From: Chryseobacterium suipulveris
GTDB lineage: Bacteria; Bacteroidota; Bacteroidia; Flavobacteriales; Weeksellaceae
Direction: 5' to 3'
DNA length: 64,000 nucleotides
Assembly: GCF_022811685.1 (NCBI RefSeq)
Contig: NZ_CP094532.1
Span: 1,265,501-1,329,500 of the forward strand
Shown here: one piece after another, positions 1,300 to 63,972 of the stretch
How positions within the stretch are numbered: position 1 is the first letter of the stretch
Layout: every line of letters begins with the position of its first letter
The notes under the pieces: generated by a model
Told to the model about the DNA's origin: nothing
What the model saw: the letters and a program-made list of their open reading frames with translations, nothing else
Databases searched by the model: none
Position numbers and translations under genes: made by a program

Positions 1300-1492
1300 G
1301 TACAACGGAAAAAGTATTGGCGAAGAACGGACAACCTTGTAAACAATTTCAAAGGAAAACCGAACCTTAGCAAAAATTTTTTCCGCTGACTAAATTACTA
1401 AAAAAAAGAAAGCGGAAAAATTTTTGCGGATACTGCTAAATCAATTCTCAAAGACAGTATTCACCCCGTTTTTCGCCAATACAATGTTAGCC
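1300..1492 (-). repeat. attC site 1
   Basis: 193 bp, class B arms (AGTATTGGC left, GCCAATAC right). End boxes GTACAAC and GTTAGCC. It is the attC of the 503-aa lipoprotein cassette on its right. Confidence 0.85.
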
Positions 1493-1499
1493 GTAGTTT

Positions 1500-3011
1500 T
1501 TATTCCACATTAATTTTTAAAAATCTAATTTCACCAACTCCTGTTTGATTTGTTGATCGATCACCAACAATTATAAATTGATTATCATTAATTTCAAATG
1601 CACGGTTTGCAATAAATGTATCTGTATTTTGCCCAATTCCGTCGCTCCATTCCCAAATAAAATTCCCATTTTCATCAAATTTTGTTAAAGTAATTATATT
1701 ATAAACCGGAAAAGTAGGAGCATACATTTCATTCATCAGCGAGTATAGATTGTTTTGATTATTAGAGAAAAAATCTAAGCCATGATATATAAAATATTGT
1801 TTTGCAGGTAATTTATTTTGCCAAACAATATTGCCATCAAAATCTGTTTTTAAAATCCAATGTTGTTTATCAGAATAACCACTATTGCCACCATAAAATC
1901 CATCAATGTAAAAGTGATTGTCTTTAATAAAATAATTATCGAAACCATCATCTCCACCATAATCACCATAATATTTTGACCAAAGCACATTTGATGTTGA
2001 ATTTGAAAAATCGAATTTTCTTATGCAACCTTCAACTGTCCAAGTCCCATTTTGTGGATATTGGTTTTGTGCATAGATCGAAATTATAGAGCCGTCATTC
2101 ATATATTTCCCATCCATCATCGCTTGATTGTTTGAATTTTGAATAATTGTTCTTTGAGAAATAATGTTCCCATCATTATCAATAAATATCTCTTCTGAAT
2201 TATGCCAATCTCCTGGTCCGGTAATGATTTTTATTAAGTTGCTATGATATGAATAACCAAAGATAGTATTACTTTGATATCCATCAGCATCAATTAAAGG
2301 AAATTCTTTTTTCCATATTTCATCGCCGTTTGTTGGGTTAATTTTTGTAATTATTGTCGCTTTTTGATTTGATTTGCCTGTTATAACTGCAATATTATTA
2401 TCTGATAAAAATTGAATTTTATAGCCATTATGATTTACATTTACACTAGGAGAATTCGAATCTTGAATTAATTTGCTCCATAACAAATTTCCATTTAAAT
2501 CAATTTTGTGTAAAACTATTTTTTTTACTTCCGTTGCATATTGTTGAATTTGTCTAGTAATTAAATATAAATAAGATTTAGTAGGATCTATTTCACTATT
2601 CATTAAATATATAAAATTTCCATTATCCGGATTTAATCCAATATTTTTATCTAAAATTGTAGAAAATACTATTTCTTTTGTATTTGCTTCTATTGTATTG
2701 CTGTAATCTGCTGAATACCATCCCTTAAAGTAATATTTTTTATTAGGTAACAGATTGTTTATAGTTATTGTTCCTTCTGTATTTTGTATGGGAATTTTTA
2801 CTTCATAATTTTCAATGTCAAAATTATCAGATTGGCTACAAATCAGATATTTTTCGGTATTAATATTTTGAATTTTATAATTAATAGAAACACTACTATT
2901 TGTTACATTGCTAATAGTTATTTCAAATTTTGATTTGTTAGAATCTATTTCATCATTTCTGCAAGAAAAAAATATGAAAGTAAATAAAAAAAGAAGTAAA
3001 ATGTTTTTCAT
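1500..3011 (-). CDS. lipoprotein with FN3-like and propeller-like repeats
   Basis: Predicted outer-membrane or surface lipoprotein of 503 aa. The leader is MKNILLLFLFTFIFFSC, with the lipid-modified Cys at residue 17. Residues of about 25-120 have a fibronectin type III-like pattern. The rest contains spaced repeats of the type GNxxWxK (GNLLWSK, GDEIWKK, NVLWSK, GNIVWQ, GNFIWEW), as in PQQ-like or delta-60 beta-propellers. The open frame extends further upstream through attC site 2, but the ATG at 3011 is chosen because it gives a proper signal peptide. It is the only gene in its cassette. The exact family is not recognised. Confidence 0.8.
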   Translation of the reverse strand: MKNILLLFLFTFIFFSCRNDEIDSNKSKFEITISNVTNSSVSINYKIQNINTEKYLICSQSDNFDIENYEVKIPIQNTEGTITINNLLPNKKYYFKGWYSADYSNTIEANTKEIVFSTILDKNIGLNPDNGNFIYLMNSEIDPTKSYLYLITRQIQQYATEVKKIVLHKIDLNGNLLWSKLIQDSNSPSVNVNHNGYKIQFLSDNNIAVITGKSNQKATIITKINPTNGDEIWKKEFPLIDADGYQSNTIFGYSYHSNLIKIITGPGDWHNSEEIFIDNDGNIISQRTIIQNSNNQAMMDGKYMNDGSIISIYAQNQYPQNGTWTVEGCIRKFDFSNSTSNVLWSKYYGDYGGDDGFDNYFIKDNHFYIDGFYGGNSGYSDKQHWILKTDFDGNIVWQNKLPAKQYFIYHGLDFFSNNQNNLYSLMNEMYAPTFPVYNIITLTKFDENGNFIWEWSDGIGQNTDTFIANRAFEINDNQFIIVGDRSTNQTGVGEIRFLKINVE

Positions 3012-3037
3012 TGATATGTGTGATTTTTTAAAATTAC

Positions 3038-3229
3038 GGCTAACGGAAAAAGTATTTGCGAAGGGCGGGCTAAATTTAACTTCAAGTTCAATTTCGACCG
3101 AACGAAGCAAATTGCTTTTTCAGATTACCAAATTACAAAAAAAGTAATATGAAAAGCAAGTTGCGACTAAATGCATCAGGTAGTGGTTTTATAGATTCAA
3201 CCCCGCCTTTTGCAAATACTATGTTAGCT
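3038..3229 (-). repeat. attC site 2
   Basis: 192 bp, class A arms. Boxes GGCTAAC and GTTAGCT. The left box pairs with the right box of site 1 over ten bases, which bounds the 1500-3011 cassette. Confidence 0.87.
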
Positions 3230-3236
3230 GTAGTCC

Positions 3237-4112
3237 TTATTTTTCCCATGTGAAATTTTTATTATTTACACCAAAGTCTGTCACATGATTAACAATATCA
3301 ACTACAGTATTTTTTCCTTTTTTATCAATTTCAAGTAGTGAAACATTTGACAATTCAAAATTTTCATCAAGGAATTCAGGCAGTAAAGCTAGATTATATC
3401 CTAAATAATCACTTTTAACGCTTGGGTATTTTACTCCTCCAATATTTGGAGAAGAGTTGAGAGATAAATTAAAATACATTGATGATAACTTATAATCATG
3501 ATGTGACTTTATAGTTTTTTTTGAAAATTCTGATGTGAAAAACTCTAATATTAATTTAAAACGTTCTTCGAAATCTGGTAAATCTCTTTTTAAGTTTTTG
3601 TAATGATAGTCAAATGCTCTTTTATTTTCTTCTGATTTTAAAAAATCTTCTGAAAATATAACTTCTAAAACTTCAGTATTTTTCTTTAATTTCCATCTCC
3701 CTAAAGTTGCATAAAACTTAATGTCTAAATCTTCATGTTTTTCTATTTCTCTAAATATTTCACTTGTTTCTATAAGATTGACAAATCTCGGGAGCTTAAT
3801 ATTTTCTGATTCAAATGCTCCGTAAAATAAGGATTGTTTCATGAGATTTGCTCTTCCATACTTTTCGATATTTGTTTCATCCCGACGATAAGAAATTTGT
3901 TCTTCAGAAGTATATAATTTGTCGCCTTGATTTAATCTAATTCTATCAACATAAAATGTATTTTGCAACATTGCGGTTGGAAAAGGAATGAATACTAATT
4001 CTTGAATTTTCTGGAATATTAAGTTTTCATCTGTTAATTCTAAATCAAATGATTTTAATTCACGAATAATTTCGTTTATCCTTTCAATTGTTGGGAGTTT
4101 ACTAAAATCCAT
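3237..4112 (-). CDS. hypothetical protein, weakly RES-domain-like
   Basis: Cytoplasmic protein of 291 aa without signal peptide or membrane segment. The stretch from about residue 55 to 100 (RIRLNQGDKLYTSEEQ, then YGRANLMKQSLFYGAF) recalls the first half of RES-type NAD-degrading toxins, where an Arg is followed by a GRxN...FYGA strand. The similarity is by eye only and no partner antitoxin is present. The remainder is helical and charged. It is the single gene of its cassette. It starts at the ATG at 4112, 19 bp before the array sequence resumes its attC pattern. Function unknown. Confidence 0.6.
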   Translation of the reverse strand: MDFSKLPTIERINEIIRELKSFDLELTDENLIFQKIQELVFIPFPTAMLQNTFYVDRIRLNQGDKLYTSEEQISYRRDETNIEKYGRANLMKQSLFYGAFESENIKLPRFVNLIETSEIFREIEKHEDLDIKFYATLGRWKLKKNTEVLEVIFSEDFLKSEENKRAFDYHYKNLKRDLPDFEERFKLILEFFTSEFSKKTIKSHHDYKLSSMYFNLSLNSSPNIGGVKYPSVKSDYLGYNLALLPEFLDENFELSNVSLLEIDKKGKNTVVDIVNHVTDFGVNNKNFTWEK

Positions 4113-4154
4113 AGATTATAATTTCGTTTTATGGTGTTTGTTTTGTAGGATTAC

Positions 4155-4286
4155 AGCTAACGTTTTGCAGCTTGGCGAAGTGGCGGAAATCGAAGCACAA
4201 ATGTTCAGTTTTGCACAAAAGTTCAATCGAAGAACTACTGTTGAATTTAGCACTGAACCCGCCATTTTGCCAAACTGCTGTTACCT
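4155..4286 (-). repeat. attC site 3 (short class)
   Basis: 132 bp, class S with arms CAGCTTGGCGAAGTGGCGG and CCGCCATTTTGCCAAACTG. Boxes AGCTAAC and GTTACCT. The whole site is repeated at 20008-20139 with its cassette. Confidence 0.82.
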
Positions 4287-5589: not shown

Positions 5590-5782
5590 AGGTAACGGAA
5601 AAAGTATTTGCGAAGGGCGGGCTAAATTGGACGAAAAGTTCAATTTCGACCGAACGAAGCAAATTGCTTTTTCAGATTGTTAAATTACAAAAAAATACAA
5701 TATGAAAAGCAAGTTGCGACTAAATGCAACAAATAGTTCTATTAAATATTCAACCCCGCCTTTTGCAAATACTATGTTAGCC
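5590..5782 (-). repeat. attC site 4
   Basis: 193 bp, class A. Boxes AGGTAAC and GTTAGCC. It ends the 159-aa hypothetical cassette. Confidence 0.86.
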
Positions 5783-6264: not shown

Positions 6265-6393
6265 GGCTAACGGTTTGGATTTGCGATGTGGCGGCTACGG
6301 ATGACGAAACTCTCAACACAGAATAAAAGTGAAAGCGAGTGAGAACCGTCAATTAACTTTTCAGACCGCCATATTGCAAAAACAGTGTTATAC
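6265..6393 (-). repeat. attC site 5 (short class)
   Basis: 129 bp, class S (GGATTTGCGATGTGGCGGC left, GCCGCCATATTGCAAAA right). Boxes GGCTAAC and GTTATAC. Confidence 0.8.
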
Positions 6394-7202: not shown

Positions 7203-7399
7203 GTATAACGGGAAAGGGCTTGGCGAAGGCGGGGATAAGAAGGACGGAAATTCCAACTAAACCCGAACCGAGCAAAAACCATTTTCGTTTTTTCAAAATT
7301 ACAAAAAATAAAAAAACGAAATGGTTTTTTGCGGCTAAAATTGCTGAAATCTTCTAAATGATAACTCTCCGCCCCGCTTTTGCCAAACCCATGTTGTAC
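7203..7399 (-). repeat. attC site 6
   Basis: 197 bp, class D. Boxes GTATAAC and GTTGTAC. It is the attC of the toxin-antitoxin cassette. Confidence 0.85.
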
Positions 7400-8080: not shown

Positions 8081-8211
8081 GCACAACGGGAAAGGGCTTC
8101 GCGAGGTGCGGGACAACTAACGATGAACTTCGGGCGTGGAAAAATCTTCAACCTGCGAAAATCTTCCGGGCGCGGCCTTCAACCCCGCATCTTGCGAAAC
8201 CCATGTTGTGC
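8081..8211 (-). repeat. attC site 7 (short class)
   Basis: 131 bp, class S (GGGCTTCGCGAGGTGCGGG left, CCCCGCATCTTGCGAAACCC right). Boxes GCACAAC and GTTGTGC. It is unusually G+C-rich for this array. Confidence 0.82.
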
Positions 8212-8631: not shown

Positions 8632-8823
8632 GCACAACGGGAAAGTATTTGCGAAGGGCGGGCTAAATTTAACTGAAAGTTCAATTTCGACCGAACGAAG
8701 CAAATTGCTTTTTCAGATTACTAATCTACAAAAAATTGTAATATGAAAAGCAAGTTGCGACTAAATGCATCGGGTTTTTCTATTATATATTCAACCCCGC
8801 CTTTTGCAAATACTATGTTATCG
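8632..8823 (-). repeat. attC site 8
   Basis: 192 bp, class A. Boxes GCACAAC and GTTATCG. Confidence 0.86.
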
Positions 8824-10374: not shown

Positions 10375-10566
10375 CGATAACGGAAAAGGGCTTTGCGAGG
10401 TGCGGGCTACTGCAAACCGAAAGTCGGGAGGAGAACCAATCTCTAGCAAAAACCATTTTCATTTTTTCAAATTTACAAAAAAAAATGAAATGGTTTTTTG
10501 CGGGTATTTTCTAGAATATTTCTGAGATTTCCTTCAACCCCGCATCTTGCAAAACCCATGTTATCG
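10375..10566 (-). repeat. attC site 9
   Basis: 192 bp, class C. Boxes CGATAAC and GTTATCG. It looks the same as site 53 throughout, copied with the DUF6624-like cassette. Confidence 0.87.
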
Positions 10567-11299: not shown

Positions 11300-11496
11300 C
11301 GATAACGGGAAACGGCTTTGCGATGTGCGGGCTTTTACAACTGAAATTTCTACTAAAAACTGCATAAAGCAAAAAAAGTTTTCCGCTGACTAAATTACGA
11401 AAAAAATGGAAGCGGAAACTTTTTTTGCGACTAAAATTGACGAAACTTTCAACGCAAGAGCCTTCAACCCCGCATATTGCAAAACCGATGTTATCT
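11300..11496 (-). repeat. attC site 10
   Basis: 197 bp, class C variant (ACGGCTTTGCGATGTGCGGG). Boxes CGATAAC and GTTATCT. Confidence 0.85.
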
Positions 11497-13881: not shown

Positions 13882-14075
13882 AGATAACGGAAAAAGTATT
13901 GGCGAAGTGCGGGCTAAAAATGAACGACTGTTCAATTTTCGAACAAGCGGAGCCGATATTTTTTCCATGAAACTAAACTACAAAAATAATGTGGAATGGA
14001 AAAATAGCGGCGGCTAAATGTGACAAATCTTTCAATTATCCCTTCACCCCGCATTTTGCCAATACTATGTTAGCT
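13882..14075 (-). repeat. attC site 11
   Basis: 194 bp, class B. Boxes AGATAAC and GTTAGCT. It carries the same body as site 57, both attached to RDD genes. Confidence 0.87.
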
Positions 14076-14552: not shown

Positions 14553-14746
14553 AGCTAACGGAAAAAGTATTGGCGAAGTGCGGGCTAAATAGAACGAAAA
14601 GTTCAATTTAGACTGAACGTAGCCGATGCTTTTTTCGGATTGTTAAATTACAAAAAATAATCAATACGAAAAAGCAGCGGCGGATAAATTTTGCAAGTCT
14701 TTCAACTTTGTACTTCTCCCCGCATTTTGCCAATACTATGTTAGCT
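14553..14746 (-). repeat. attC site 12
   Basis: 194 bp, class B. Boxes AGCTAAC and GTTAGCT. Confidence 0.87.
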
Positions 14747-15450: not shown

Positions 15451-15645
15451 AGCTAACGGAAAAAGTATTGGCGAAGGACGGGCTACCTTGCAGACAATTT
15501 CAAAGGAAAACCGAACCTGAGCAAAATGCTTTTTCAGATTTCTAATTTACTAAAAAAAGAAATATGAAAAGCATTTTTGCGGATATTGTTAACTGAATTC
15601 TCAAAGACAATATTCACCCCGTCTTTTGCCAATACTATGTTGTAG
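15451..15645 (-). repeat. attC site 13
   Basis: 195 bp, class B with GAAGGACGGG. Boxes AGCTAAC and GTTGTAG. Confidence 0.86.
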
Positions 15646-16516: not shown

Positions 16517-16715
16517 CTACAACGGAAAACGGCTTTGCGAAGGCGGGGATTTTACAACCGAAAAGTTCTATAAAAACTACACCGAGCAAAAACCATTTTC
16601 GTTTTTTCAAAATTACAAAAAATAAAAAAACGAAATGGTTTTTTGCGGCGAAAAGTGCTGAAAACTTTCAACGCAAGGTAACTTCGCCCCCGCTTTTGCA
16701 AAACCGATGTTATGT
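16517..16715 (-). repeat. attC site 14
   Basis: 199 bp, class D variant (GGCTTTGCGAAGGCGGGG). Boxes CTACAAC and GTTATGT. Same body as site 54. Confidence 0.86.
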
Positions 16716-17157: not shown

Positions 17158-17356
17158 ACATAACGGGAAACGGCTTGGCGAAGGCGGGGGAAAGAAAGAC
17201 AAAAAGTTCAACTAAACCCGAAACCAGCAAAAAACCATTTTCGTTTTTTCAAAATTACAAAAAATAACAAACGAAAATGGTTTTTTTGCGGCGAAAAGTG
17301 CAGAAATTTTCTAAATGATAACTTTCACCCCCGCTTTTGCCAAACCGATGTTGTGC
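17158..17356 (-). repeat. attC site 15
   Basis: 199 bp, class D. Boxes ACATAAC and GTTGTGC. Same body as site 52. Confidence 0.86.
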
Positions 17357-17812: not shown

Positions 17813-18004
17813 ACAACGAAAAAGTATTGGCGAAGTGCGGGCTGGATTGGACGAAAAGTTCAATTCAGAACTGAGCGTAGCCGATGCTTTTTTCGGATTG
17901 TTAAATTACAAAAATAATCAATACGGAAAAAGCAATCGGCGGATAAATGCTAAAAATATTTCAACTTGCGTTTCGCCCCGCATTTTGCCAATACACTGTT
18001 AGGC
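17813..18004 (-). repeat. attC site 16
   Basis: 192 bp, class B. Boxes GCACAAC and GTTAGGC. AACGA replaces the usual AACGG. Confidence 0.85.
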
Positions 18005-18624: not shown

Positions 18625-18756
18625 GCCTAACGTTTTTCGGCTTGGCGATGTGGCGGATTTTTAGCACTAAAGTTCAATCGAAGAACGAAAGTTGAAGCTT
18701 GCACAAATGTTTCATAGAAGCACTTCAGCCGCCATATTGCCAAACCGATGTTATAG
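18625..18756 (-). repeat. attC site 17 (short class)
   Basis: 132 bp, class S (GGCTTGGCGATGTGGCGG). Boxes GCCTAAC and GTTATAG. Confidence 0.82.
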
Positions 18757-19339: not shown

Positions 19340-19532
19340 CTATAACGGAAAAAGTATTTGCGAAGGGCGGGCTAAATTTAACTGAAAGTTCAATTTCGAC
19401 CGAACGAAGCAAATTGCTTTTTCAGATTGTTAAATTACAAAAAAATACAATATGAAAAGCAAGTTGCGACTAAATATATCGGGTTTTTCTATTATATATT
19501 CAACCCCGCCTTTTGCAAATACTATGTTAGCT
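19340..19532 (-). repeat. attC site 18
   Basis: 193 bp, class A. Boxes CTATAAC and GTTAGCT. Body same as site 56. Confidence 0.86.
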
Positions 19533-20007: not shown

Positions 20008-20139
20008 AGCTAACGTTTTGCAGCTTGGCGAAGTGGCGGAAATCGAAGCACAAATGTTCAGTTTTGCACAAAAGTTCAATCGAAGAACTACTGTTGAATT
20101 TAGCACTGAACCCGCCATTTTGCCAAACTGCTGTTACCT
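20008..20139 (-). repeat. attC site 19 (short class)
   Basis: 132 bp. Same sequence as site 3. Boxes AGCTAAC and GTTACCT. Confidence 0.83.
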
Positions 20140-21442: not shown

Positions 21443-21635
21443 AGGTAACGGAAAAAGTATTTGCGAAGGGCGGGCTAAATTTAACTGCAAGTTCAATTTC
21501 GACCGAACGAAGCAAATTGCTTTTTCAGATTGTTAAATTACAAAAAAATACAATATGAAAAGCAAGTTGCGACTAAATGCATCGGGTTTTTCTATTAACT
21601 ATTCAACCCCGCCTTTTGCAAATACTATGTTACCT
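21443..21635 (-). repeat. attC site 20
   Basis: 193 bp, class A. Boxes AGGTAAC and GTTACCT. Confidence 0.87.
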
Positions 21636-22345: not shown

Positions 22346-22543
22346 AGGTAACGGTAAGGGGCTTTGCGAGGTGCGGGCTACTGCAACTGAAAGTGGAGAG
22401 GAGAACGAAACTCTAGCAAAAACTTTTTCCATTTTTTAAAATTACGAAAAAACTAAAAAATGGAAAAGTTTTTTGCGGGTATTTTCTAGAATATTTCTCT
22501 GAGATTTCCTTCAACCCCGCATCTTGCAAAACCCATGTTATCT
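22346..22543 (-). repeat. attC site 21
   Basis: 198 bp, class C (GGGGCTTTGCGAGGTGCGGG). Boxes AGGTAAC and GTTATCT. Confidence 0.86.
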
Positions 22544-23044: not shown

Positions 23045-23238
23045 AGATAACGGAAAAAGTATTTGCGAAGGGCGGGCTAAATTGGACGAAAAGTTCAATT
23101 TCGACCAACCGAAGCGAATGCTTTTTTCGTGGAACTAAACTACAAAAAAATTGTGGAACGAAAAAGCAGGCGCGACTAAATGCATCGGGTAGTTCTATTA
23201 AATATTCAACCCCGCCTTTTGCAAATACTATGTTATGC
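23045..23238 (-). repeat. attC site 22
   Basis: 194 bp, class A with a variant centre (GAATGCTTTTTTCGTGGAAC). Boxes AGATAAC and GTTATGC. Body same as site 44. Confidence 0.86.
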
Positions 23239-23862: not shown

Positions 23863-24060
23863 GCATAACGGAAAAAGTATTGCCGAAGAAGCGGGATTTT
23901 TATAACCGAAATTTCAAAAGAATCACTTCCCGAAGCAAAAATTTTTCCCTTTTTCAAACTTACAAATTTCTTTGAAAAAGGGAAAATTTTTTGCGACTAT
24001 TTTCCCAAAACACCCAAATAATTCCTTCAACCCCGCTTTTTTGGCAATACTATGTTGTGC
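23863..24060 (-). repeat. attC site 23
   Basis: 198 bp, divergent arms (AGTATTGCCGAAGAAGCGGG left, CCCCGCTTTTTTGGCAATAC right). Boxes GCATAAC and GTTGTGC. Confidence 0.82.
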
Positions 24061-24912: not shown

Positions 24913-25107
24913 GCACAACGGAAAAAGTATTGGCGAAGGACGGGCTACTTTGCAAACAATTTCAAAAGAAGACCGAACCGGAGCAAAATGCTTTTTCAGA
25001 TTTCTAAATTACTAAAAAAAGAAATATGAAAAGCATTTTTGCGGATATTGTTAACTGAATTCTCAAAGCCAATATTTACCCCGTCTTTTGCCAATACAAT
25101 GTTGTAC
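24913..25107 (-). repeat. attC site 24
   Basis: 195 bp, class B with GAAGGACGGG. Boxes GCACAAC and GTTGTAC. Confidence 0.86.
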
Positions 25108-25703: not shown

Positions 25704-25900
25704 GTACAACGGGAAAAGTATTGGCGAAGTGCGGGAGAAAGATGCTGAAAATGAACAACTTAAACTGCAATAAGCAAAAAACTTTTTCGTATTACGAACT
25801 TACAATAATTTTCGGAATACGAAAAGTTTTTTTGCGACTAAATCTAACTGAATGTTCTATTAGTGCTTCAACCCCGCATTTTGCCAATACTATGTTAGCT
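25704..25900 (-). repeat. attC site 25
   Basis: 197 bp, class B with GAAGTGCGGGAG. Boxes GTACAAC and GTTAGCT. Confidence 0.84.
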
Positions 25901-36334: not shown

Positions 36335-36415
36335 AGGTAACGGCAAAGCATCTTGCGAAGTGTGGCGTATGCAGATTGAAAGTTTCCGCCACATTTTGCA
36401 AATGCCATGTTATCT
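36335..36415 (-). repeat. attC site 35 (minimal)
   Basis: Only 81 bp, the smallest site. Arms GCATCTTGCGAAGTGTGGCG and CGCCACATTTTGCAAATGC around a 20-base centre. Boxes AGGTAAC and GTTATCT. Confidence 0.75.
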
Positions 36416-38666: not shown

Positions 38667-38798
38667 AGATAACGGTTCGCGTATTGGCGATGGGCGGGAT
38701 TTTTAGCACTAATGTTCATACGAAGCACAAATGTTGAATTTTGCACTTCCGTTGATACGAAGCCGTTCAGCCCGCCTATTGCCAATACGATGTTATAG
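38667..38798 (-). repeat. attC site 38 (short class)
   Basis: 132 bp, class S (CGCGTATTGGCGATGGGCGG). Boxes AGATAAC and GTTATAG. It is the attC of the four-gene cassette. Confidence 0.82.
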
Positions 38799-40813: not shown

Positions 40814-41005
40814 CTATAACGGAAAAAGTATTGCTGAAGTGCGGGCTTTTACAAACTGAAAGTTCAATTATCACTACACTGAACAAAAACTTTTTTCTTT
40901 TGCTAATTTACTAAAAAGAGTGAAAAAAAAAAGTTTTTGTGGGTAAATATAACCGAGTTTTCTATCTTGACTTTAACCCCGCATTTTAGCAATACCATGT
41001 TATAT
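40814..41005 (-). repeat. attC site 39
   Basis: 192 bp, divergent class B (AGTATTGCTGAAGTGCGGGC left, CCCGCATTTTAGCAATAC right). Boxes CTATAAC and GTTATAT. Its right box begins the 5.2-kb cassette. Confidence 0.83.
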
Positions 41006-46215: not shown

Positions 46216-46347
46216 ATATAACGGTTTGGGTATTGCCGAAGGCGGGGATTTTTAGCGCTAAAGTTCAATCGAAAAACGAAAGTTGAACCTTGTACAAATG
46301 TCCAATCGAAGCCGTTCAGCCCCGCTTTTGGCAATACCTTGTTAGCG
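46216..46347 (-). repeat. attC site 40 (short class)
   Basis: 132 bp, class S (GGGTATTGCCGAAGGCGGGG). Boxes ATATAAC and GTTAGCG. Left box matches the right box of site 39 across the 5.2-kb segment. Confidence 0.82.
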
Positions 46348-46891: not shown

Positions 46892-46979
46892 CGCTAACGG
46901 GAAAGGGCTTTGCGAAGTTACGCCAAAAACGAGGCTGCCATAGCTTTGGAGGCGTAATTTTGCAAAACCCATGTTATCT
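46892..46979 (-). repeat. attC site 41 (minimal)
   Basis: 88 bp. Arms GGGCTTTGCGAAGTTACGCC and GGCGTAATTTTGCAAAACCC with a short centre. Boxes CGCTAAC and GTTATCT. Confidence 0.75.
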
Positions 46980-47361: not shown

Positions 47362-47557
47362 AGATAACGGAAAGGGGCTTTGCGAGGTGCGGGCTACTGC
47401 AACCGAAAGTGGAGAGGAGGGCGAAACTCTAGCAAAAACTTTTTCCATTTTTTAAAATTACAAAAAAACTAAAAAATGGAAAAGTTTTTTGCGGGTATTT
47501 TCTAAAAATTTTCTGAGATTTCCTTCAACCCCGCATCTTGCAAAACCCATGTTATCT
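47362..47557 (-). repeat. attC site 42
   Basis: 196 bp, class C. Boxes AGATAAC and GTTATCT. Confidence 0.86.
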
Positions 47558-48105: not shown

Positions 48106-48301
48106 AGATAACGGAAAGGGGCTTTGCGAGGTGCGGGCTACTGCAACCGAAAGTGGAGAGGAGAACCAATCTCTAGCAAAAACTTTTTCCATTTTTTAAA
48201 ATTACGAAAAAACTAAAAAATGGAAAAGTTTTTTGCGGGTATTTTCTAGGATATTTCTAAGATTTCCTTCAACCCCGCATCTTGCAAAACCCATGTTACC
48301 T
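48106..48301 (-). repeat. attC site 43
   Basis: 196 bp, class C. Boxes AGATAAC and GTTACCT. Confidence 0.86.
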
Positions 48302-48942: not shown

Positions 48943-49136
48943 AGGTAACGGAAAAAGTATTTGCGAAGGGCGGGCTAAATTGGACGAAAAGTTCAATTTC
49001 GACCAACCGAAGCGAATGCTTTTTTCGTGGAACTAAACTACAAAAAAATTGTGGAACGAAAAAGCAGGCGCGACTAAATGCATCGGGTAGTTCTATTAAA
49101 TATTCAACCCCGCCTTTTGCAAATACTATGTTATGC
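48943..49136 (-). repeat. attC site 44
   Basis: 194 bp, class A, same body as site 22. Boxes AGGTAAC and GTTATGC. Confidence 0.86.
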
Positions 49137-49760: not shown

Positions 49761-49958
49761 GCATAACGGGAAAGGGCTTGGCGAAGGCGGGGATAAGATA
49801 GACGGAAATTCCAACTAAACCCGAACCGAGCAAAAACCATTTTCGTTTTTTCAAAATTACAAAAAATAAAAAAACGAAATGGTTTTTTGCGGCTAAAAAT
49901 GCTAAAAAGTTCAACGCAAGGGAACTTCAACCCCGCTTTTGCCAAACCCATGTTGTGC
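49761..49958 (-). repeat. attC site 45
   Basis: 198 bp, class D. Boxes GCATAAC and GTTGTGC. Same body as site 50. Confidence 0.86.
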
Positions 49959-50402: not shown

Positions 50403-50593
50403 GCACAACGGAAAAGGGCTTTGCGAGGTGCGGGTTACTGCAACTGGAAGTGGAGAGGAGAACCGAACGCTAGCAAAAACTTTTTCCATTTTTTAAAATT
50501 ACGAAAAAACTAAAAAATGGAAAAGTTTTTTGCGGGTATTTTCTAGGATTTTTCTGAGATTTCCTTCAACCCGCATCTTGCAAAACCCATGTT
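50403..50593 (-). repeat. attC site 46, split by an IS91-like element
   Basis: Class C, left box GCACAAC. The right arm is normal up to AAACCCATG, then the IS sequence begins. The remaining half of the right box (TTACCTGCAG) is found at 53012, beyond the element. Confidence 0.82.
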
Positions 50594-50664
50594 GAACTAA
50601 ACCTTCGGTAGCTTTCTCAGCGCTATATTTAGTTACTTTGTAAAACTAATTAAAAATCAGTAAA

Positions 50665-51614
50665 ATGGCAACAAAAAAAAGAGTGTAGAAGAGCTTAGAG
50701 AAAACAAGATCATCAATCAGGCAAAGCGCGAAGTTCCGGGATTTGCGGAGCTTTTGCATAGGTTTGAACGTACGGTTTCTGTATTGGGAAGAAGCCAAAG
50801 TACCTTTCAAAATTACTCCAGACACGTCGCTGCGGTGTCGCTACATTTCGGAAAAATTCCTACAGAATTGGATCCCGAGCAAATTCACGATTACCTTTTT
50901 TACCTTCAGAAAAAATCAAAATCACCTTCACAGTCGTATTTTAAACACACCGTTTACGGACTTCGATTTCTGCTTAAATCGGAAGGTTTGAGCTATGATT
51001 ATTTGAGTCTTCCGGAAATTAAAAGAGAGAAAAAACTGCCTGTAGTGCTTAGTAAACAGGAGGTTTGGCAGATGTTGTCCGGCTGTAAACTTTTAAAACA
51101 TAAAATTTTGATCGGCATTCTTTACGGCTGCGGATTGCGCTGTATGGAAGTTCGAAATCTCCGTTTGTGCGACTTAGATTTTGGTCGAAAACAACTCAAA
51201 GTGGTTCAGGGAAAAGGCAAAAAAGACCGCTATTTACCACTTTCCGAACATCTGATTCGTGGGCTCAAAAAGTATATCGAAGCGGAAAAACCGGAAGATT
51301 ATCTCTTTGGAGAACCTCGTGGAGGGCGTGCTGGTGGCGATTTCGATTCCCGTTACTCCCAGCGCGGCGTTCAGTGGGCGGTAAAGCAGGCATCAAAAAC
51401 GGCAAATATCCTGAAAGAAGTGAGTGTCCATACGCTTCGGCACAGTTTTGCGACGCATCTTCTGGAAGATGGGATGGATATTTTGAGCATCAAAAATCTT
51501 CTCGGTCACGAAAGTATCGATACCACGCTGGTTTATCTTCAAATTGCCCAGCTTTCAACCCAAAAACTCTTTTCACCGCTCGATACCCTTTTTTCAGAAT
51601 TTGGGAAAAAATGA
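50665..51614 (+). pseudogene. XerC/D-type tyrosine recombinase, frame change near start
   Basis: About 316 aa if read across a run of eight A at 50673-50680. From the ATG at 50665 the zero frame stops after eight codons. A -1 slip on the A run continues KSVEELRENKIINQAKREV into the long frame. Catalytic residues are present: Arg in GCGLRCMEVRNLRL, HTLRH and GHESIDTTLVYL with the nucleophile Tyr. SAM-like N-terminal domain at about 40-110. Whether the slip is programmed or a read error is open. The stop overlaps the transposase start as ATGA. Confidence 0.72.
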
Positions 51615-52777
51615 GCGGTTTAAAAACCTCAAAAAAACAGTCAGTTCAACCTCAATCTCAACCTCAATACGAAGTCGCCGATGTTTTAAACAAATTAGGT
51701 TCAAAATTGGAAGATTTAGGACTTAATTCTTGGCAATTACGAACACTTTCAGCGTTGAAAAAATGCCGTACCTCTGCTTTGGGTGGTCATATTGACGCTT
51801 GTGATGAATGTGGAAATGTAAGCATCAGTTACAACTCCTGCCGAAACCGTCATTGCCCAAAATGTCAGAGCAAAAACCGAGAGCAATGGATTGAAAATCG
51901 GGAAACCGAACTGCTTCCGGTACCTTATTTCCACGTGGTTTTTACGCTTCCTGATGTATTGAACAAAACCGCGCTTCACGAGCCCAAAATGTTGTACGAT
52001 TTTTTATTTGAATCTGCCTGGGAAACGCTTCAAACGTTTGGTGAAAATCGAGGTTTAAAAATGGGAATGATTGCTGTTTTGCACACTTGGGGGCAGAATC
52101 TGAGCCTTCATCCGCATTTGCACTGCATTGTTCCGGGCGGTGGAGTGGATGAAAGCGGAGCTTGGAAAAATCTACGTTCAGACGGCAAATTTTTGTTTCC
52201 GGTAAAGGCTTTGAGTAAAGTTTTCAGGGCTAAATTTTGTGAGAAATTAAAAGATAAAAACTTTGAAGAGTATACCAAAATCAGGCAAAATCTGTGGGAA
52301 AAGTCTTGGGTTGTTTACGCCAAAAAGCCTTTTGGAAGCCCAAAATCTGTGGTAGAATATTTGGGCAGATACACGCATAAAATCGCCATCAGCAACCAGA
52401 GAATCAGGAAAATTGACGCGGAAACGGTAACTTTTTCTTACAAAGATTACCGCCAAAAAGGCATCAAAAAGCAGATGGTTTTGAGCCATGAAGAGTTTAT
52501 CCGCCGTTTTGTGATGCATATTTTACCGAAAAGATTTGTAAAAATCCGTCATTATGGTTTTTTGAGCAGCACCTGGAAGCGTATCAAACTTAAAAATCTA
52601 CAACAAAATTTAGGCATCCAGCCCAAAGAAAAGCTTCCGCCAAAAGCTTTTCAGCCGAAATGTACGTGTTGTAAAGATGGAAATCTTGTGACGATTGCCA
52701 CGTTCGATCTACGAGGTCCGCCAAGTTGGTTTTTGGAGATGAGCCGAAATTTACCTGCTCCTAAATCTGCATTTTAG
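51611..52777 (+). CDS. IS91-family transposase
   Basis: 388 aa rolling-circle transposase. N-terminal zinc finger CDECGNVSISYNSCRNRHCPKC, then the domain with PYFHVVFTLPDVLN, the HUH-like HLHCIVPGGGV and the Tyr pair in YLGRYTHKIAISN. The start overlaps the recombinase stop (ATGA), so it needs translational coupling. Full length, no internal stops. C-terminal metal-binding CTCC is present. Confidence 0.9.
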   Translation: MSGLKTSKKQSVQPQSQPQYEVADVLNKLGSKLEDLGLNSWQLRTLSALKKCRTSALGGHIDACDECGNVSISYNSCRNRHCPKCQSKNREQWIENRETELLPVPYFHVVFTLPDVLNKTALHEPKMLYDFLFESAWETLQTFGENRGLKMGMIAVLHTWGQNLSLHPHLHCIVPGGGVDESGAWKNLRSDGKFLFPVKALSKVFRAKFCEKLKDKNFEEYTKIRQNLWEKSWVVYAKKPFGSPKSVVEYLGRYTHKIAISNQRIRKIDAETVTFSYKDYRQKGIKKQMVLSHEEFIRRFVMHILPKRFVKIRHYGFLSSTWKRIKLKNLQQNLGIQPKEKLPPKAFQPKCTCCKDGNLVTIATFDLRGPPSWFLEMSRNLPAPKSAF

Positions 52778-52855
52778 CGGATTTGGGTAAGGGAAATGTT
52801 AACCTAACGTGAAGGAAAGCACGATAAAACCAAGAAAAACTCGCCAAAATCACCC

Positions 52856-52887
52856 ACAAAAAAAGAGACTCTTCTCAAAGTCTCTTG
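52856..52887 (-). terminator. rho-independent terminator, minus strand
   Basis: Stem AAGAGACT with AGTCTCTT and an eight-base loop. On the minus strand it is followed by a run of seven T. It would stop transcription coming from the arsenic cassette into the element; on the plus strand the T run is absent. Confidence 0.65.
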
Positions 52888-53027
52888 TATCTCTAAAAAT
52901 CTTTTGTCGATAAACCCATAGTGTGGGAAAATACCCAACCAAAAGCTGCCGAAGGTTCCGTTCAACAGGGTTTTCATTGTTCGTGCTGCGCACGCAACGA
53001 AAACTTAGCTATTACCTGCAGTTCTTT

Positions 53028-53639
53028 TTATTCAGCAAGTTTTGAGAAAAGATAGAACATTTCTTGTCCGATTTCTATACTTTTTTGCAAATATTTTTTG
53101 TTCATTTCTGTTGTTCCGTAAAAAGTTTTCGGGTCTTCGTAGCGAATTGCAATTCTTTTGTCCGCTCCTGCAATGAAAGGACAGCCTTGGTCTGCACTCG
53201 AACAAGTCATAATTGCACAAAAATGGCTTTCAGGATTAAATTTGTCGTCGTATCTTTTTGAAAATCCTATAATTGGACTTTCATTTTCATCAAATTTTAT
53301 GGCGTAAATTGGATTTTGATTTTCGGATAATTTAACGATTTCAAAACCTTGATTTGCCAAGGTTTCCGCAACTTTAGGGAACATTGCAGTTGCTTGTGTT
53401 CCGCCCGAAAAACACGATACATTTTCTATTTTAAAATAATTTGCCAAAGTTTGCGCCCAAATCTGCGACAAATGACTTCTCCGTGAATTGTGTGTGCAAA
53501 TAAAGTTCAGACGAATTTTTTCGCTTGTGTTTCTTTTGCTTTGAATGTAGTCAATTAGCGGTTGCAAAACTTCTTTTCTTTCTTTGGAAATTTCGCTGTT
53601 TTGAAAGTTTGAAATGATTTCAAGAATTTTAGAGTTCAT
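53028..53639 (-). CDS. arsC: arsenate reductase, LMW-PTP type
   Basis: 203 aa. Phosphatase P-loop CTHNSRRS (Cys-x5-Arg) near residue 49, followed by SQIWAQ and FSGGT, and the second cysteine region [10 protein letters not shown]. This is the thioredoxin-linked or mycothiol-like protein-tyrosine-phosphatase fold of arsenate reductases in Bacteroidota. It overlaps acr3 by 11 bp. It reduces arsenate to arsenite for export by its neighbour. Confidence 0.9.
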
Positions 53640-54669
53640 TTTTATAGTATTTTGATTTTAGATAAAGACTGATTTTTACGAGTAGAATTAAAACGGGAAC
53701 TTCAACTAAAGGTCCGATTACGCCTGCAAATGCCTGTGGCGAATGAATTCCGAAAACGGCAATAGCAACTGCAATCGCCAATTCAAAATTATTTCCTGTT
53801 GCCGTAAATGAGATTGAAGCGTTTTTGTCGTATGGAATTTTCATTGATTTTCCCAAAAAGAAACTCACGAAAAACATCAACATAAAATAAATGACAAGCG
53901 GGATTGCAATTTTCACAACATCAAATGGAAGTTCTAAAATTTTGTCGCCTTTCAAACTGAACATCAGAACAATCGTAAACAAAAGCGCATACAAAGTAAA
54001 GGGCGAAATAAAGGGAACAAATTTTCTATCAAACCAAGTTTTTCCCTTATGTTTGATGAGAAAATATCGGCTCAAAAAACCAAGCAAAAAAGGAATTCCC
54101 AAATAGATTAAAACGCTTTCTGCAACATCTTTCATTGGAACTTGAACATTGAAATTTCCCAATCCCAATTTTTGTGGCAAAACATTAATGAAAAGCCAAG
54201 CGTAAAAACTATAAGTTATCAATTGAAAAATGCTGTTTAGAGCAATTAACAATGCTCCATATTCTCGGTTTCCTTTTGCCAAATCGTTCCAAACAATCAC
54301 CATTGCGATACATCTCGCCAAACCAATTAAGATTAATCCGACCATATAATCAGGCTCATTTCTTAAAAAAATAATTGCGAGAACAAACATTAAAATCGGG
54401 CCAATTATCCAATTCAGAAGTAAAGAAAGCGACATCGCTTTTTTGTCGGAAAATGCTTTTGGAAGTAGGGAATAATCCACTTTTGCAAGTGGTGGATACA
54501 TCATCAAAATCAATCCTATTGCTAAAAGTATGTTCGTTGAAGCTACAGAAAGTTTTTCGTTAATTTCTTTAATATTTGGGAAAAAATATCCCAAAGTAAC
54601 GCCGAAAATCATCGCAAGGAAAATCCAAAGCGTGAGATAACGGTCTAAAAATTTGAGTTTTGGTTTCAT
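53629..54669 (-). CDS. acr3: ACR3-type arsenite efflux transporter
   Basis: 346 aa, about ten membrane helices. Characteristic Acr3 segments: [20 protein letters not shown], in which the Cys is the conserved arsenite-binding residue, and [20 protein letters not shown], with [13 protein letters not shown]. Second gene of the arsenic cassette; starts 42 bp after arsR, with an ArsR-like site between. Confidence 0.94.
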
Positions 54670-54673
54670 TTTG

Positions 54674-54693
54674 TATTATTGCGATATTACGAT
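54674..54693 (-). promoter_or_regulatory. candidate ArsR operator upstream of acr3
   Basis: Minus-strand ATCGTAATATCGCAATAATA, the same motif as upstream of arsR with two changes. Position between arsR and acr3 fits repression of the efflux gene. Confidence 0.55.
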
Positions 54694-54710
54694 TAAGTTT
54701 TTTAAATTTT

Positions 54711-55037
54711 TTAACAGCAGTTTTGTTTTTTAAGTTTTGTAGTCATTGTTTCAAAATAAAATTCAAACATTGAAAGTGTTTCTTCATTAATGCAGTAACA
54801 CACGGAATTTCCTTCTATATTTCCTTTTATTAATCCTGCGTCTTTAAGTTGTTTTAAGTGTTGTGAAACGGTTGGTTGTGCCAAAGGCAGTTTATCTACA
54901 ATATCACTGCAAATGCATTCATTCACTTTTAGAAGATATTCCAAGATTGCAATTCTTGCAGGATGTGCCAATGCTTTCGCAATGTTTGCGATTTCATTTT
55001 GTTGGTCTGTAAAATGTTCGGTTTTTGTTGCTCCCAT
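54711..55037 (-). CDS. arsR: ArsR-family repressor
   Basis: 108 aa winged-helix repressor. HTH core LPLAQPTVSQHLKQLKDAGLI, and the metal-site region NECICSDIV in the helix before it holds the Cys pair CxC that binds arsenite. A further CC ends the protein. First gene of the cassette; it should repress arsR-acr3-arsC until arsenite binds. Confidence 0.93.
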   Translation of the reverse strand: MGATKTEHFTDQQNEIANIAKALAHPARIAILEYLLKVNECICSDIVDKLPLAQPTVSQHLKQLKDAGLIKGNIEGNSVCYCINEETLSMFEFYFETMTTKLKKQNCC

Positions 55038-55050
55038 TTTTCTACATTTT

Positions 55051-55070
55051 GATATTGCAATATTACGATG
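55051..55070 (-). promoter_or_regulatory. candidate ArsR operator upstream of arsR
   Basis: Minus-strand CATCGTAATATTGCAATATC contains the perfect palindrome ATATTGCAATAT, 14 bp before the arsR start. The match with the site before acr3 supports a shared operator. Confidence 0.65.
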
Positions 55071-55137
55071 AATTTTTTAATCTTAAAATATTTTTTCGTT
55101 TTTTTGTCTTTTTATACGGGATTTTGGTTAGAATTGC

Positions 55138-55332
55138 AGGTAACGGAAAAAGTATTGGCGAAGTGCGGGCTTAATTTGAATGAAAGTTCAAGTTCAGACC
55201 AATCGTAGCCGATATTTTTTCCATGGAACTAAATTACAAAAAAATTGTGGAATGGAAAAATAGCGGCGGCTAAAAAGAAGAGGATTTTCAATTCCGATGT
55301 TCCGCCCGCATTTTGCCAATACAATGTTAGCT
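55138..55332 (-). repeat. attC site 47
   Basis: 195 bp, class B but with a different centre from sites 11 and 57, although attached to the same RDD gene. Boxes AGGTAAC and GTTAGCT. Confidence 0.86.
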
Positions 55333-55809: not shown

Positions 55810-56004
55810 AGCTAACGGAAAACGGCTTGGCGAAGGCGGGGATAAGAAAGACGAAACTTCCAACTAAACCCGAACCGAGCAAAAACCATTTTCGTTTTTT
55901 CAAAATTACAAAAAATAAAAAACGAAATGGTTTTTTGCGGCGACAAGTGAGAGAATCTCCTAACTTATAACTTCAACCCCGCTTTTGCCAAACCGATGTT
56001 AGCG
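55810..56004 (-). repeat. attC site 48
   Basis: 195 bp, class D. Boxes AGCTAAC and GTTAGCG. Confidence 0.86.
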
Positions 56005-57143: not shown

Positions 57144-57336
57144 CGCTAACGGAAAAAGTATTTGCGAAGGGCGGGCTAAATTTAACTGAAAGTTCAATTT
57201 CGACCGAATGAAGCAAATTGCTTTTTCAGATTACCAAATTACAAAAAAAAGTAATATGAAAAGCAAGTTGCGACTAAATGCATCGGGTTTTTCTATTATA
57301 TATTCAACCCCGCCTTTTGCAAATACAATGTTATAT
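57144..57336 (-). repeat. attC site 49
   Basis: 193 bp, class A. Boxes CGCTAAC and GTTATAT. Confidence 0.86.
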
Positions 57337-57778: not shown

Positions 57779-57782
57779 AAAA

Positions 57783-58083: not shown

Positions 58084-58281
58084 ATATAACGGGAAAGGGC
58101 TTGGCGAAGGCGGGGATAAGATAGACGGAAATTCCAACTAAACCCGAACCGAGCAAAAACCATTTTCGTTTTTTCAAAATTACAAAAAATAAAAAAACGA
58201 AATGGTTTTTTGCGGCTAAAAATGCTAAAAAGTTCAACGCAAGGGAACTTCAACCCCGCTTTTGCCAAACCCATGTTGTGC
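58084..58281 (-). repeat. attC site 50
   Basis: 198 bp, class D, same body as site 45. Boxes ATATAAC and GTTGTGC. Confidence 0.86.
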
Positions 58282-58725: not shown

Positions 58726-58918
58726 GCACAACGGAAAAAGTATTGGCGAAGTGCGGGCTAAAAATGAACTAATGTTCAATTTTCGACCAAACGGAGCCGA
58801 TGCTTTTTTCGGATTGTTAAATTAAGAAAAAAATCAATACGAAAAAGCAGCGGCGGCTAAAAATCACAAATCTTTCTACTTGGATTCAACCCCGCATTTT
58901 GCCAATACTATGTTAGCA
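58726..58918 (-). repeat. attC site 51
   Basis: 193 bp, class B. Boxes GCACAAC and GTTAGCA. Confidence 0.86.
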
Positions 58919-59562: not shown

Positions 59563-59761
59563 TGCTAACGGGAAACGGCTTGGCGAAGGCGGGGGAAAGA
59601 AAGACAAAAAGTTCAACTAAACCCGAAACCAGCAAAAAACCATTTTCGTTTTTTCAAAATTACAAAAAATAACAAACGAAAATGGTTTTTTTGCGGCGAA
59701 AAGTGCAGAAATTTTCTAAATGATAACTTTCACCCCCGCTTTTGCCAAACCGATGTTGTGC
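59563..59761 (-). repeat. attC site 52
   Basis: 199 bp, class D, same body as site 15. Boxes TGCTAAC and GTTGTGC. Confidence 0.86.
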
Positions 59762-60215: not shown

Positions 60216-60407
60216 GCACAACGGAAAAGGGCTTTGCGAGGTGCGGGCTACTGCAAACCGAAAGTCGGGAGGAGAACCAATCTCTAGCAAAAACCATTTT
60301 CATTTTTTCAAATTTACAAAAAAAAATGAAATGGTTTTTTGCGGGTATTTTCTAGAATATTTCTGAGATTTCCTTCAACCCCGCATCTTGCAAAACCCAT
60401 GTTATCG
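60216..60407 (-). repeat. attC site 53
   Basis: 192 bp, class C, same as site 9. Boxes GCACAAC and GTTATCG. Confidence 0.87.
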
Positions 60408-61140: not shown

Positions 61141-61339
61141 CGATAACGGAAAACGGCTTTGCGAAGGCGGGGATTTTACAACCGAAAAGTTCTATAAAAA
61201 CTACACCGAGCAAAAACCATTTTCGTTTTTTCAAAATTACAAAAAATAAAAAAACGAAATGGTTTTTTGCGGCGAAAAGTGCTGAAAACTTTCAACGCAA
61301 GGTAACTTCGCCCCCGCTTTTGCAAAACCGATGTTATGT
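61141..61339 (-). repeat. attC site 54
   Basis: 199 bp, class D variant, same body as site 14. Boxes CGATAAC and GTTATGT. Confidence 0.86.
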
Positions 61340-61781: not shown

Positions 61782-61974
61782 ACATAACGGAAAAAGTATT
61801 TGCGAAGGGCGGGCTAAATTTAACTGAAAGTTCAATTTCGACCGAACGAAGCAAATTGCTTTTTCAGATTGTTAAATTACAAAAAAATACAATATGAAAA
61901 GCAAGTTGCGACTAAATGCAACTGATAGTTCTATTAAAGATTTAACCCCGCCTTTTGCAAATACTATGTTATAC
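61782..61974 (-). repeat. attC site 55
   Basis: 193 bp, class A. Boxes ACATAAC and GTTATAC. Confidence 0.86.
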
Positions 61975-62501: not shown

Positions 62502-62694
62502 GTATAACGGAAAAAGTATTTGCGAAGGGCGGGCTAAATTTAACTGAAAGTTCAATTTCGACCGAACGAAGCAAATTGCTTTTTCAGATTGTTAAATTAC
62601 AAAAAAATACAATATGAAAAGCAAGTTGCGACTAAATATATCGGGTTTTTCTATTATATATTCAACCCCGCCTTTTGCAAATACTATGTTAGCT
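62502..62694 (-). repeat. attC site 56
   Basis: 193 bp, class A, same body as site 18. Boxes GTATAAC and GTTAGCT. Confidence 0.86.
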
Positions 62695-63136
62695 GTAGTA
62701 ATTTTTCTTTGATTTATTTCAGCAAATTTATTACTTTTTAATATTAAGGGGATTAATAATGAACTAAGTAATATAAATAATGTAAAAAATTTATCAAGAA
62801 TTTTAGTTTTCTTGTTTCTTCTTGGAGTGAGAGTCTTTCCAACAACTTCTATAATTATATTTCTATTATAAATTTTTCTTATTAAAAAATTGAAAATATT
62901 GTAAGAACTATAAAAATTATTGGAGAAAAATAATATGTTTCAAGAGTTAAGGTGTTAAATCGGATTATTCCAATTACACTTAGGAATAATGAGATTAGTA
63001 TATATTTTAATGAAGATTTAAATTCAAATAATTGATGATATTCATGTAGATTATTTTGTTTGTTCTTTTTCTCAATTAGAAAAATTATGAATCCGAATCC
63101 AATTAAAATGGAAAGTATTGTTAAGAATGAATTCAT
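62592..63136 (-). pseudogene. membrane protein with frameshift, copy 2
   Basis: Copy of 19430-19974 with the same break in a T run near 62880. Identity across the break in both copies favours a real mutation before duplication, or a slippage signal, over random error. Confidence 0.6.
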
Positions 63137-63169
63137 TTTCTATTTAAACGTCATTTTTGGAATTATTAC

Positions 63170-63363
63170 AGCTAACGGAAAAAGTATTGGCGAAGTGCGG
63201 GCTAAAAATGAACGACTGTTCAATTTTCGAACAAGCGGAGCCGATATTTTTTCCATGAAACTAAACTACAAAAATAATGTGGAATGGAAAAATAGCGGCG
63301 GCTAAATGTGACAAATCTTTCAATTATCCCTTCACCCCGCATTTTGCCAATACTATGTTAGCT
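63170..63363 (-). repeat. attC site 57
   Basis: 194 bp, class B, same body as site 11. Boxes AGCTAAC and GTTAGCT. Confidence 0.86.
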
Positions 63364-63373
63364 GCAGTGTCTT

Positions 63374-63790
63374 TTATTCAGTCAATTTTATCACTTTAGT
63401 TTTTGCAAGTAAATCACCCAATCGCTGGCTTTCTGGCGAATTTTTAATAATAATTATTCCAACCAAACCGAAGAGAGACATATCAATTGGATCGAGTAAA
63501 TGTCTTAAAAATGATTGTTTAAAGTCAATATTCTTTTCAGTATTTAAATCAACAGGTTTAAGTTTCATCAAATAATTTCCCAAAGTTGAATTCAGGGTTG
63601 ATTCAATAACACAAAAATAGAAAAACCAAAAAATAAAGATTGGAATTGCTTTTAGTCCATTTACGGAATATTCGCCTAATTCATTTTTTTCTCCAAAAGT
63701 AAAAATGTAAATGCAAGTTAAAGTCAAAACAATTGAATAATCAATAACTCCAGCAATAATTCTAGATATTAGATATTTTTCTTTTTTCAA
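63374..63790 (-). CDS. RDD-family membrane protein, copy 3
   Basis: Third copy, with the same attC body as the one at 14086. It is the last complete gene before the window edge and so one of the nearest to the predicted attI. Confidence 0.85.
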   Translation of the reverse strand: MKKEKYLISRIIAGVIDYSIVLTLTCIYIFTFGEKNELGEYSVNGLKAIPIFIFWFFYFCVIESTLNSTLGNYLMKLKPVDLNTEKNIDFKQSFLRHLLDPIDMSLFGLVGIIIIKNSPESQRLGDLLAKTKVIKLTE

Positions 63791-63840
63791 TTTTTAGTTT
63801 TTTAAGAATTTGGATTTTAGCGGAGTCTTTCTGACATTGC

Positions 63841-63972
63841 AGCTAACGGTTTGGGTATTGCCGAAGGCGGGGATTTTTAGCACAAAAGTTCAATCGAAGA
63901 ACGAAAGTTGAACCTTTCACAAATGCCCAATAGAAGCCGTTCAGCCCCGCTTTTGGCAATACCATGTTGTAC
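63841..63972 (-). repeat. attC site 58 (short class)
   Basis: 132 bp, class S like site 40. Boxes AGCTAAC and GTTGTAC. Its right box opens another cassette outside the window. Confidence 0.82.

Follow-up and report, generated by a model that had tools for sequence, protein, structure and literature searches.

A large chromosomal cassette array with integron layout beside a tyrosine recombinase lacking the IntI patch in Chryseobacterium suipulveris

Introduction

Chromosomal integrons such as those of Vibrio, Xanthomonas and Treponema consist of an integrase gene (intI) that diverges from its array, an adjacent attI site and a long run of cassettes separated by hairpin sites (attC), whose outer arm is carried by the cassette. 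The outer arm of IntI sites is 7 bp long and the sites bear bulged extrahelical bases. We analyzed a 64,000-nucleotide stretch of the Chryseobacterium suipulveris chromosome (the window; bases 1265501–1329500 of a 3.04-Mb single-contig genome, with coordinates given as those of the window unless marked genome), which contains an array of 58 attC-like hairpin sites in a single orientation (1304–63968), with cassettes read mostly from the minus strand. An earlier note on this DNA, made from the letters alone, had described a sedentary chromosomal integron. The cassettes, the single orientation of the sites, a putative attI, a divergent recombinase and signs of recombination uphold the integron architecture, but the array is not an IntI integron. 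The best reading is a second kind of integron with an integrase that lacks the IntI-specific patch (hereafter, patchless).

Like IntI chromosomal integrons, the C. suipulveris locus combines a divergent recombinase, an attI, a long single-orientation array, hairpin sites with a cassette-borne outer arm and gene-less cassettes. The latter are also reported in Vibrionaceae integrons in the accessible part of one study (PMC11014356). An integron-like subgroup exists among simple tyrosine recombinases, and the available text of the same work calls the IntI insertion essential for integron function (PMC8138268); the family described here accompanies cassette arrays despite lacking it. The accessible parts of two further sources list Bacteroidota among the phyla with integrons (PMC8618304) and report that IntegronFinder 2.0 found integrons in Bacteroidetes, where only In0 elements had been seen before (PMC9024848). 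Those integrons were detected via an IntI profile, unlike the array described here. With the IntI insertion regarded as essential and detection based on IntI profiles, a widespread system could be missed. A literature search by title and beginning of the abstract, with most subscription papers and bioRxiv outside its range, returned no description of a patchless cassette system.

Results and Discussion

The site scan required only AAC, an inner stem score of at least 12 and GTT, and returned 69 raw matches over 124 kb of contiguous genome versus one in a block-shuffled copy. Six non-overlapping matches without an AACG core (−415, 14320, 48599, 55577, 63608 and 96683) were left out and one short site (36339–36411) was added by hand to give a curated total of 63 attC-like sites. 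Fifty-eight of them are inside the window, which confirms the count given in the earlier note, and five lie beyond it, on both sides. The sites in the window fall into a long (48 sites of 182–191 nt) and a short (10 sites of 73–124 nt) group; several attC classes thus coexist, as proposed previously. The genes had also been described as almost all on the minus strand, and this is where the longest open reading frame (ORF) of a unit resides in 58 of 63 cases; nine of the 63 have no ORF of 70 amino acids. These ORF-less cassettes (<70 aa) are numbers 15, 16, 42, 46, 51, 53, 55, 62 and 63, and eight of the nine belong to the identical pairs described below.

A covariance-model search of the window, which the note had proposed as a check, recovered all of the 10 short sites on the minus (gene) strand and none of the 48 long ones, which exceed the reach of the model. 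This model was built from many genomes, and its training set included sites 4, 36 and 39; site 20 is a repeat of site 4. A single right-arm pattern, valid for some of the site classes only, had 40 forward and no reverse matches in the whole genome and none in a reversed control. The window holds 31 of the 40 matches and one (genome 1576626) is in no array. Rfam at the gathering threshold and a tRNA search each gave zero matches. The array overruns both ends of the window, extending to the putative attI at 67561 on the right and, in interrupted pieces, to approximately −68.8 kb on the left.

The ends of the cassettes follow a strict rule. The four nucleotides after GTT are the reverse complement of the four nucleotides before the AAC of the next site in 60 of 62 cassettes, whereas the same match inside one site is exact in 10 of 63. 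Hence, the earlier notion that the nnnnAAC and GTTnnnn ends pair within a site did not hold. A scan for exact within-site pairs (41 pairs, many of them in genes) was rejected, having missed most sites because the pairing spans the cassette and not the site. Across the eight nucleotides after GTT, the mean match was 6.82 versus a maximum of 4.45 in 2000 random partner draws. The two ends agree at positions 4–15 in 57 to 61 of the 62 cassettes, with the exception of position 11; here, 60 of 62 have G at one end against A at the other. Agreement stops at position 16. Therefore, every cassette is bounded by an inverted repeat of its own, 15 nt long and with one constant mismatch (position 11). One of the two 4-nt exceptions is site 47 (50407–50593), which is interrupted after GTT by an IS91-type element; the cassette resumes past this element with TTACCTGCAGT at 53012, and this sequence fits the far end. 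Nine other arrays, chosen by hand, had matching cassette ends in 66 of 85 cases versus 7 of 94 within sites (L134, one of the nine, had 0 of 4), and the corresponding numbers in a Riemerella array were 31 of 39 versus 1 of 40.

In gene orientation, a cassette reads TT-nnnn-G...gene...nnnnAAC-hairpin-G. This cassette rule is that of integrons but with a longer arm, 15 nt with a fixed mismatch. The core also differs from that of IntI integrons, being GTTR mostly without RRY. Only four of the 63 sites have GTTRRRY (the scan itself imposed AAC and GTT), and the RYYYAAC/GTTRRRY core of IntI-type integrons does not describe the array.

The inner stem was aligned in gene orientation from 51 arm pairs chosen by eye for variety from 109 collected (97 listed), 11 of the 51 coming from the C. 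suipulveris genome and the others from other genomes. All the arm pairs were found via stem pairing, which biases the percentage of paired positions towards structure. Both sides change in 19 of the 23 pairs of the stem, and the covariation score was 0.560 versus 0.139 for shuffled and 0.061–0.098 for slid alignments. Two positions are A.C mismatches (in 49 and 34 of the 51 arm pairs, the second position being G-C in 11), which become G.T on the opposite strand; IntI sites have bulged extrahelical bases instead. Folding is more stable for the bottom strand (relative to the genes) at 62 of the 63 C. suipulveris sites and for 64 of the 67 arm pairs taken from other genomes.

To the right of the window, the last cassette ends with TAAC joined to TCTCAAATATACGCA at 67561. 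The putative attI (AACTCTCAAATATACGCA, 67561–67580) is joined to the cassette end at this position, and a divergent tyrosine recombinase of 366 amino acids (67701–68801, plus strand) starts 140 bp beyond 67561. The anatomy is thus a recombinase gene, a putative attI and then cassettes that point away from the recombinase. By layout, the locus has the integrase-adjacent attI (putative) and the array of single-orientation sites expected of an integron. The earlier note had predicted an IntI integrase on this side of the window; the recombinase and attI were found, but the protein lacks the IntI-specific insertion near patch III and its score against TIGR02249 (integron integrase) is 189.2 bits, below the cut-off of 265. 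The same note had made its reading depend on an intI somewhere in the genome, and the complete genome has no match over the TIGR02249 cut-off. Nor does the recombinase qualify as XerA (NF040815), against which it scores 203.6 bits for a cut-off of 220.

IntI4 (2a3v) has 68 residues where the profile of the patchless family has 25 positions, and the spacing between the KDR and HxLRHS motifs is 56 residues in all 17 family members versus 98 in all 11 IntI proteins (11 of 12, as L157 was not included). Two Xer-like proteins of the same genome have spacings of 60 and 64 residues. When taken by regular expression, the spacing was 58 in 78 of 80 named loci, with two not measurable. In a tree of 34 proteins carrying a long-branch warning, the IntI proteins formed one clade (100/100) and the patchless family was separate (81/88), which places the recombinase outside the IntI clade. 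A KSPLD-like C-terminal tail is common to the patchless family and IntI.

The recombinase, attI motif and hairpins recur across many Bacteroidota. At E ≤ 1e-60, 83 of the 148 genomes in the taxonomic family had a match to the recombinase family, and 23 of 33 genera were represented. The attI motif, which was derived from these recombinase loci themselves, was present in the 400 nt upstream of 51 of 75 recombinase relatives and in no case (0 of 76) downstream; the right-hand sides contained it 7 times in 1.28 Mb, both strands counted. The 80 named loci had 84 site-scan matches in 402 kb of the divergent side versus 18 in 639 kb of the other side and 4 after shuffling. Forty-two loci had at least 3 kb of divergent side, and 17 of them combined motif and site, 7 had just the motif, 3 had just a site and 15 had neither. 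A covariance model (R1) run in many-genome mode matched 16 of the 148 family genomes and scored none in C. suipulveris, a result not usable as evidence of absence; the model cannot span sites of 185 nt, and the single-genome mode gave three places in the C. suipulveris genome. A gamma-glutamyltransferase-like protein encoded beside the recombinase had no match at 1e-50 in 97 loci, and the short flanks therefore give no sign of one fixed chromosomal site.

The array also bears the traces of recombination. Eleven cassette pairs are 100% identical, and the hairpin 3′ of the gene is also common to nine of them. On the other side, identity ends within 4 nt of AAC in nine of the 11 pairs; in the remaining two it continues into a same-class hairpin, for 15 and 31 nt. 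No two adjacent cassettes are duplicated in the same order. We also identified cassettes shared between species over the full GTT-to-AAC length and with other neighbors in each. For example, a cassette of Amniculibacterium aquaticum (L062) is 97.5% identical over 437 bp and is at attI there versus mid-array in C. suipulveris. Cassette 59 (63968–64874, crossing the end of the window) has 86% identity across 911 bp with an aadS cassette on a Riemerella plasmid (L161) and likewise with Chryseobacterium sp. VAUSW3 (L051). The Riemerella genome G066 has a cassette at 84% over 669 bp. Kaistella palustris and K. treverensis share a full-length cassette at approximately 75%. The units are mobile cassettes of integron design, because they have their own end repeats, occur as identical copies beside other neighbors and lose identity at the AAC core. 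The earlier note had made its reading depend on recombination between sites, and the single-cassette duplications and interspecies sharing, with breaks at the core, supply it; the enzyme would be the one encoded at attI.

In related bacteria, drug-resistance genes seem to be kept in cassettes of the same system. According to the accessible part of a recent report (PMC13148043), aph(3')-IVb (262 aa) enters the chromosome of Riemerella anatipestifer ATCC 11845 together with 27 bp from its 5′ side and 140 bp from its 3′ side, and no flanking homology is involved; the 140 bp fold like an attC, and the mechanism is described as yet to be fully elucidated. The same text names RCAD0416 as a carrier and relE/HTH genes beside the insertion, and in that part no recombinase, array, attI or cassette ends are named. 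Plasmid pRCAD0416RA-1 of strain RCAD0416 has 11 sites by the scan and carries a 789-bp APH(3') gene between two of them, with AAC cores 956 bp apart. This distance equals 27 + 789 + 140, matching the published unit, and the covariance model finds both flanking sites. From the strain, family and length, we infer that this gene is aph(3')-IVb. Hence, the published insertion shares with the cassettes described here an attC-like stem-loop 3′ of the gene and a unit that has the length of a cassette. A single-contig Riemerella genome (G052, same genus as G066) has 40 sites on one strand versus six matches on the other in 60 kb, and its array holds a relE/HTH cassette with the genes named beside the insertion in the portion of PMC13148043 available. 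A run of eight equally spaced sites occurs twice in this array (L168, L170), across the start of the record.

We consider it highly probable that the C. suipulveris array functions in the manner of an integron, with a patchless tyrosine recombinase in charge. From the layout, we infer that the recombinase at attI would be the enzyme acting on these sites; single-strand folding, use of the bottom strand, expression of the cassettes and the direction of insertion are likewise predicted. The substrate, either a circular cassette or imported single-stranded DNA, would fold on the bottom strand into the hairpin. On recognizing this fold, the recombinase would carry out strand exchange at the G/TT core, the partner being attI or a further attC-like site. 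New cassettes would enter beside the recombinase, and old ones could be excised, reinserted and copied. With somewhat less assurance, we favor as a whole the broader proposal that Bacteroidota own a kind of integron, widespread in the phylum and either convergent or a relic from before the patch, in which a patchless recombinase reads folded hairpins via G.T wobbles in a long outer arm and an inner arm and not via a patch and bulged bases, and which offers a hidden route for collecting tet(X), estT, aadS, APH and OXA in Weeksellaceae.

Several observations weigh against the integron-like reading. In a Riemerella genome the recombinase is far from the array, and an R. anatipestifer locus (L101) has no attI motif upstream of the recombinase; a link between recombinase and array would therefore be in trans there. 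Among the loci with at least 3 kb of sequence, 7 of 24 with the motif have no site and 3 of 18 without it have one. Two of the 11 identical pairs, both involving cassette 48, have no common hairpin. The same cassette body also has different hairpins in different species (L062, L047, L055, L161 and L051 versus the window); the hairpins appear to have been replaced, and simple cassette transfer does not explain these differences. Furthermore, the genome-wide covariance-model searches are insensitive.

These points have to be set against what the alternatives can explain. A classical sedentary chromosomal integron with a patch-bearing IntI would show the same integrase, attI and cassette layout, and 84 of 296 genomes in the phylum encode an IntI above the cut-off. 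This explanation is nonetheless very improbable for a genome without a TIGR02249 match over the cut-off, a recombinase at attI without the patch and so few GTTRRRY sites. Moreover, among the IntI-positive genomes listed, none is from the same order and one (G183) is from the same class, and the hairpin model gives a single weak match (E 0.096) in 12 IntI loci that total 44 kb. Equally hard to credit is a set of interspersed palindromic repeats or terminators that homologous recombination has shuffled. The full-length identity of some of the hairpins is enough for RecA, but cassette-specific 15-nt ends that pair across the gene would have no role. Additionally, at 62 of 63 sites the sense strand is the less stably folded one, the opposite of what is expected of terminators, and the Riemerella insertion is reported without flanking homology in the accessible text (PMC13148043).

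The cassettes could also be real but moved by XerC/D or by the IntI-like recombinases borne on IS91-type elements, with the patchless recombinase as a bystander. Such elements start right after the GTT core at 50593 and at sites of a second array (array B; genome 2399, 2414 and 2418 kb), their recombinases group with IntI in the tree (95/82, with the long-branch warning) and the recombinase and array are apart in Riemerella. We regard this scenario as unlikely, though less so than the previous two, given that the attI motif and the arrays occupy a fixed side of the patchless family in many genera. An integron-like system with a patchless recombinase would be a testable explanation for the homology-free insertion of a resistance gene in Riemerella and a natural comparison for how recombinases read folded single-stranded DNA. 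It also places several resistance genes in cassettes.

Site positions, cargo and associated elements

All of the sites in the window are on the minus strand. The scan placed the long sites at 1304–1488 (site 2, 185 nt), 3042–3225 (3), 5594–5778 (5), 7207–7395 (7), 8636–8819 (9), 10379–10562 (10), 11304–11492 (11), 13886–14071 (12), 14557–14742 (13), 15455–15641 (14), 16521–16711 (15), 17162–17352 (16), 17815–18000 (17), 19344–19528 (19), 21447–21631 (21), 22350–22539 (22), 23049–23234 (23), 23867–24056 (24), 24917–25103 (25), 25708–25896 (26), 26929–27114 (27), 28485–28669 (28), 29391–29575 (29), 30469–30653 (30), 31254–31438 (31), 32326–32513 (32), 32939–33124 (33), 34050–34234 (34), 35223–35410 (35), 36790–36974 (37), 38019–38204 (38), 40818–41001 (40), 47366–47553 (43), 48110–48297 (44), 48947–49132 (45), 49765–49954 (46), 50407–50593 (47), 55142–55328 (48), 55814–56000 (49), 57148–57332 (50), 58088–58277 (51), 58730–58914 (52), 59567–59757 (53), 60220–60403 (54), 61145–61335 (55), 61786–61970 (56), 62506–62690 (57) and 63174–63359 (58). 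Both the scan and the covariance model identified the short sites at 4159–4282 (4), 6269–6389 (6), 8085–8207 (8), 18629–18752 (18), 20012–20135 (20), 38671–38794 (39), 46220–46343 (41), 46896–46975 (42) and 63845–63968 (59). The hand-added site 36 (36339–36411), also found by the model, is the shortest (73 nt).

Left of the window (genome 1194–1238 kb, approximately −71 to −28 kb), about ten further sites have the same orientation. The breaks between these pieces are stretches with other integrases at genome 1206.6 and 1238.7 kb that start near attC-like sites.

Of 47 ORFs in the window compared to Pfam (genes of the IS91-type element not counted), 23 had no family. The named cargo includes GNAT, SMR, GIY-YIG, RDD, alpha/beta hydrolase and Na/H exchanger proteins and a response regulator with a histidine kinase. 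The cassette at 53012–55142, directly past the IS91-type element, carries ArsR, an ACR3 arsenite exporter and a further ORF.

The element itself (50594–53011, plus strand) encodes an IntI-like recombinase (50754–51614) and an HUH transposase in the ORF at 51167–52777. Elements of this type start exactly after the attC core (ATGTT|GAACTAAAC), a junction that recurs in L056 and L063, and copies with the same recombinase score are at genome 2395 and 2418 kb. Hence, IS91-type elements seem to target attC-like sites.

Array B (genome 2393–2422 kb; L037–L039) has a patchless recombinase of 362 amino acids. Its region encodes AadS, EstT, Tet(X), FloR and an ABC-F protein, all of which exceed their NCBIfam cut-offs. 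Second copies of EstT and Tet(X) were noted by eye in this region, which also encodes an ISCR-like transposase that scores below its cut-off. The recombinase profile gave 635.3 bits here and an identical score in five other genomes, and the platform therefore looks mobile from its sequence. On plasmids, a search with this recombinase at 1e-60 returned two records, both from Chryseobacterium (43.5% and 43.6% identity). We also considered xerD, which adjoins tet(X) on Acinetobacter plasmids, as a member of the patchless family; the plasmid matches, all from Chryseobacterium, did not support it. The estT-tet(X) stretch was found in 312 plasmid records, and 23 of the 25 listed start beyond the hairpin. 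A Sphingobacterium record (H26) starts at the end of the hairpin and a Riemerella record (H4) covers it.

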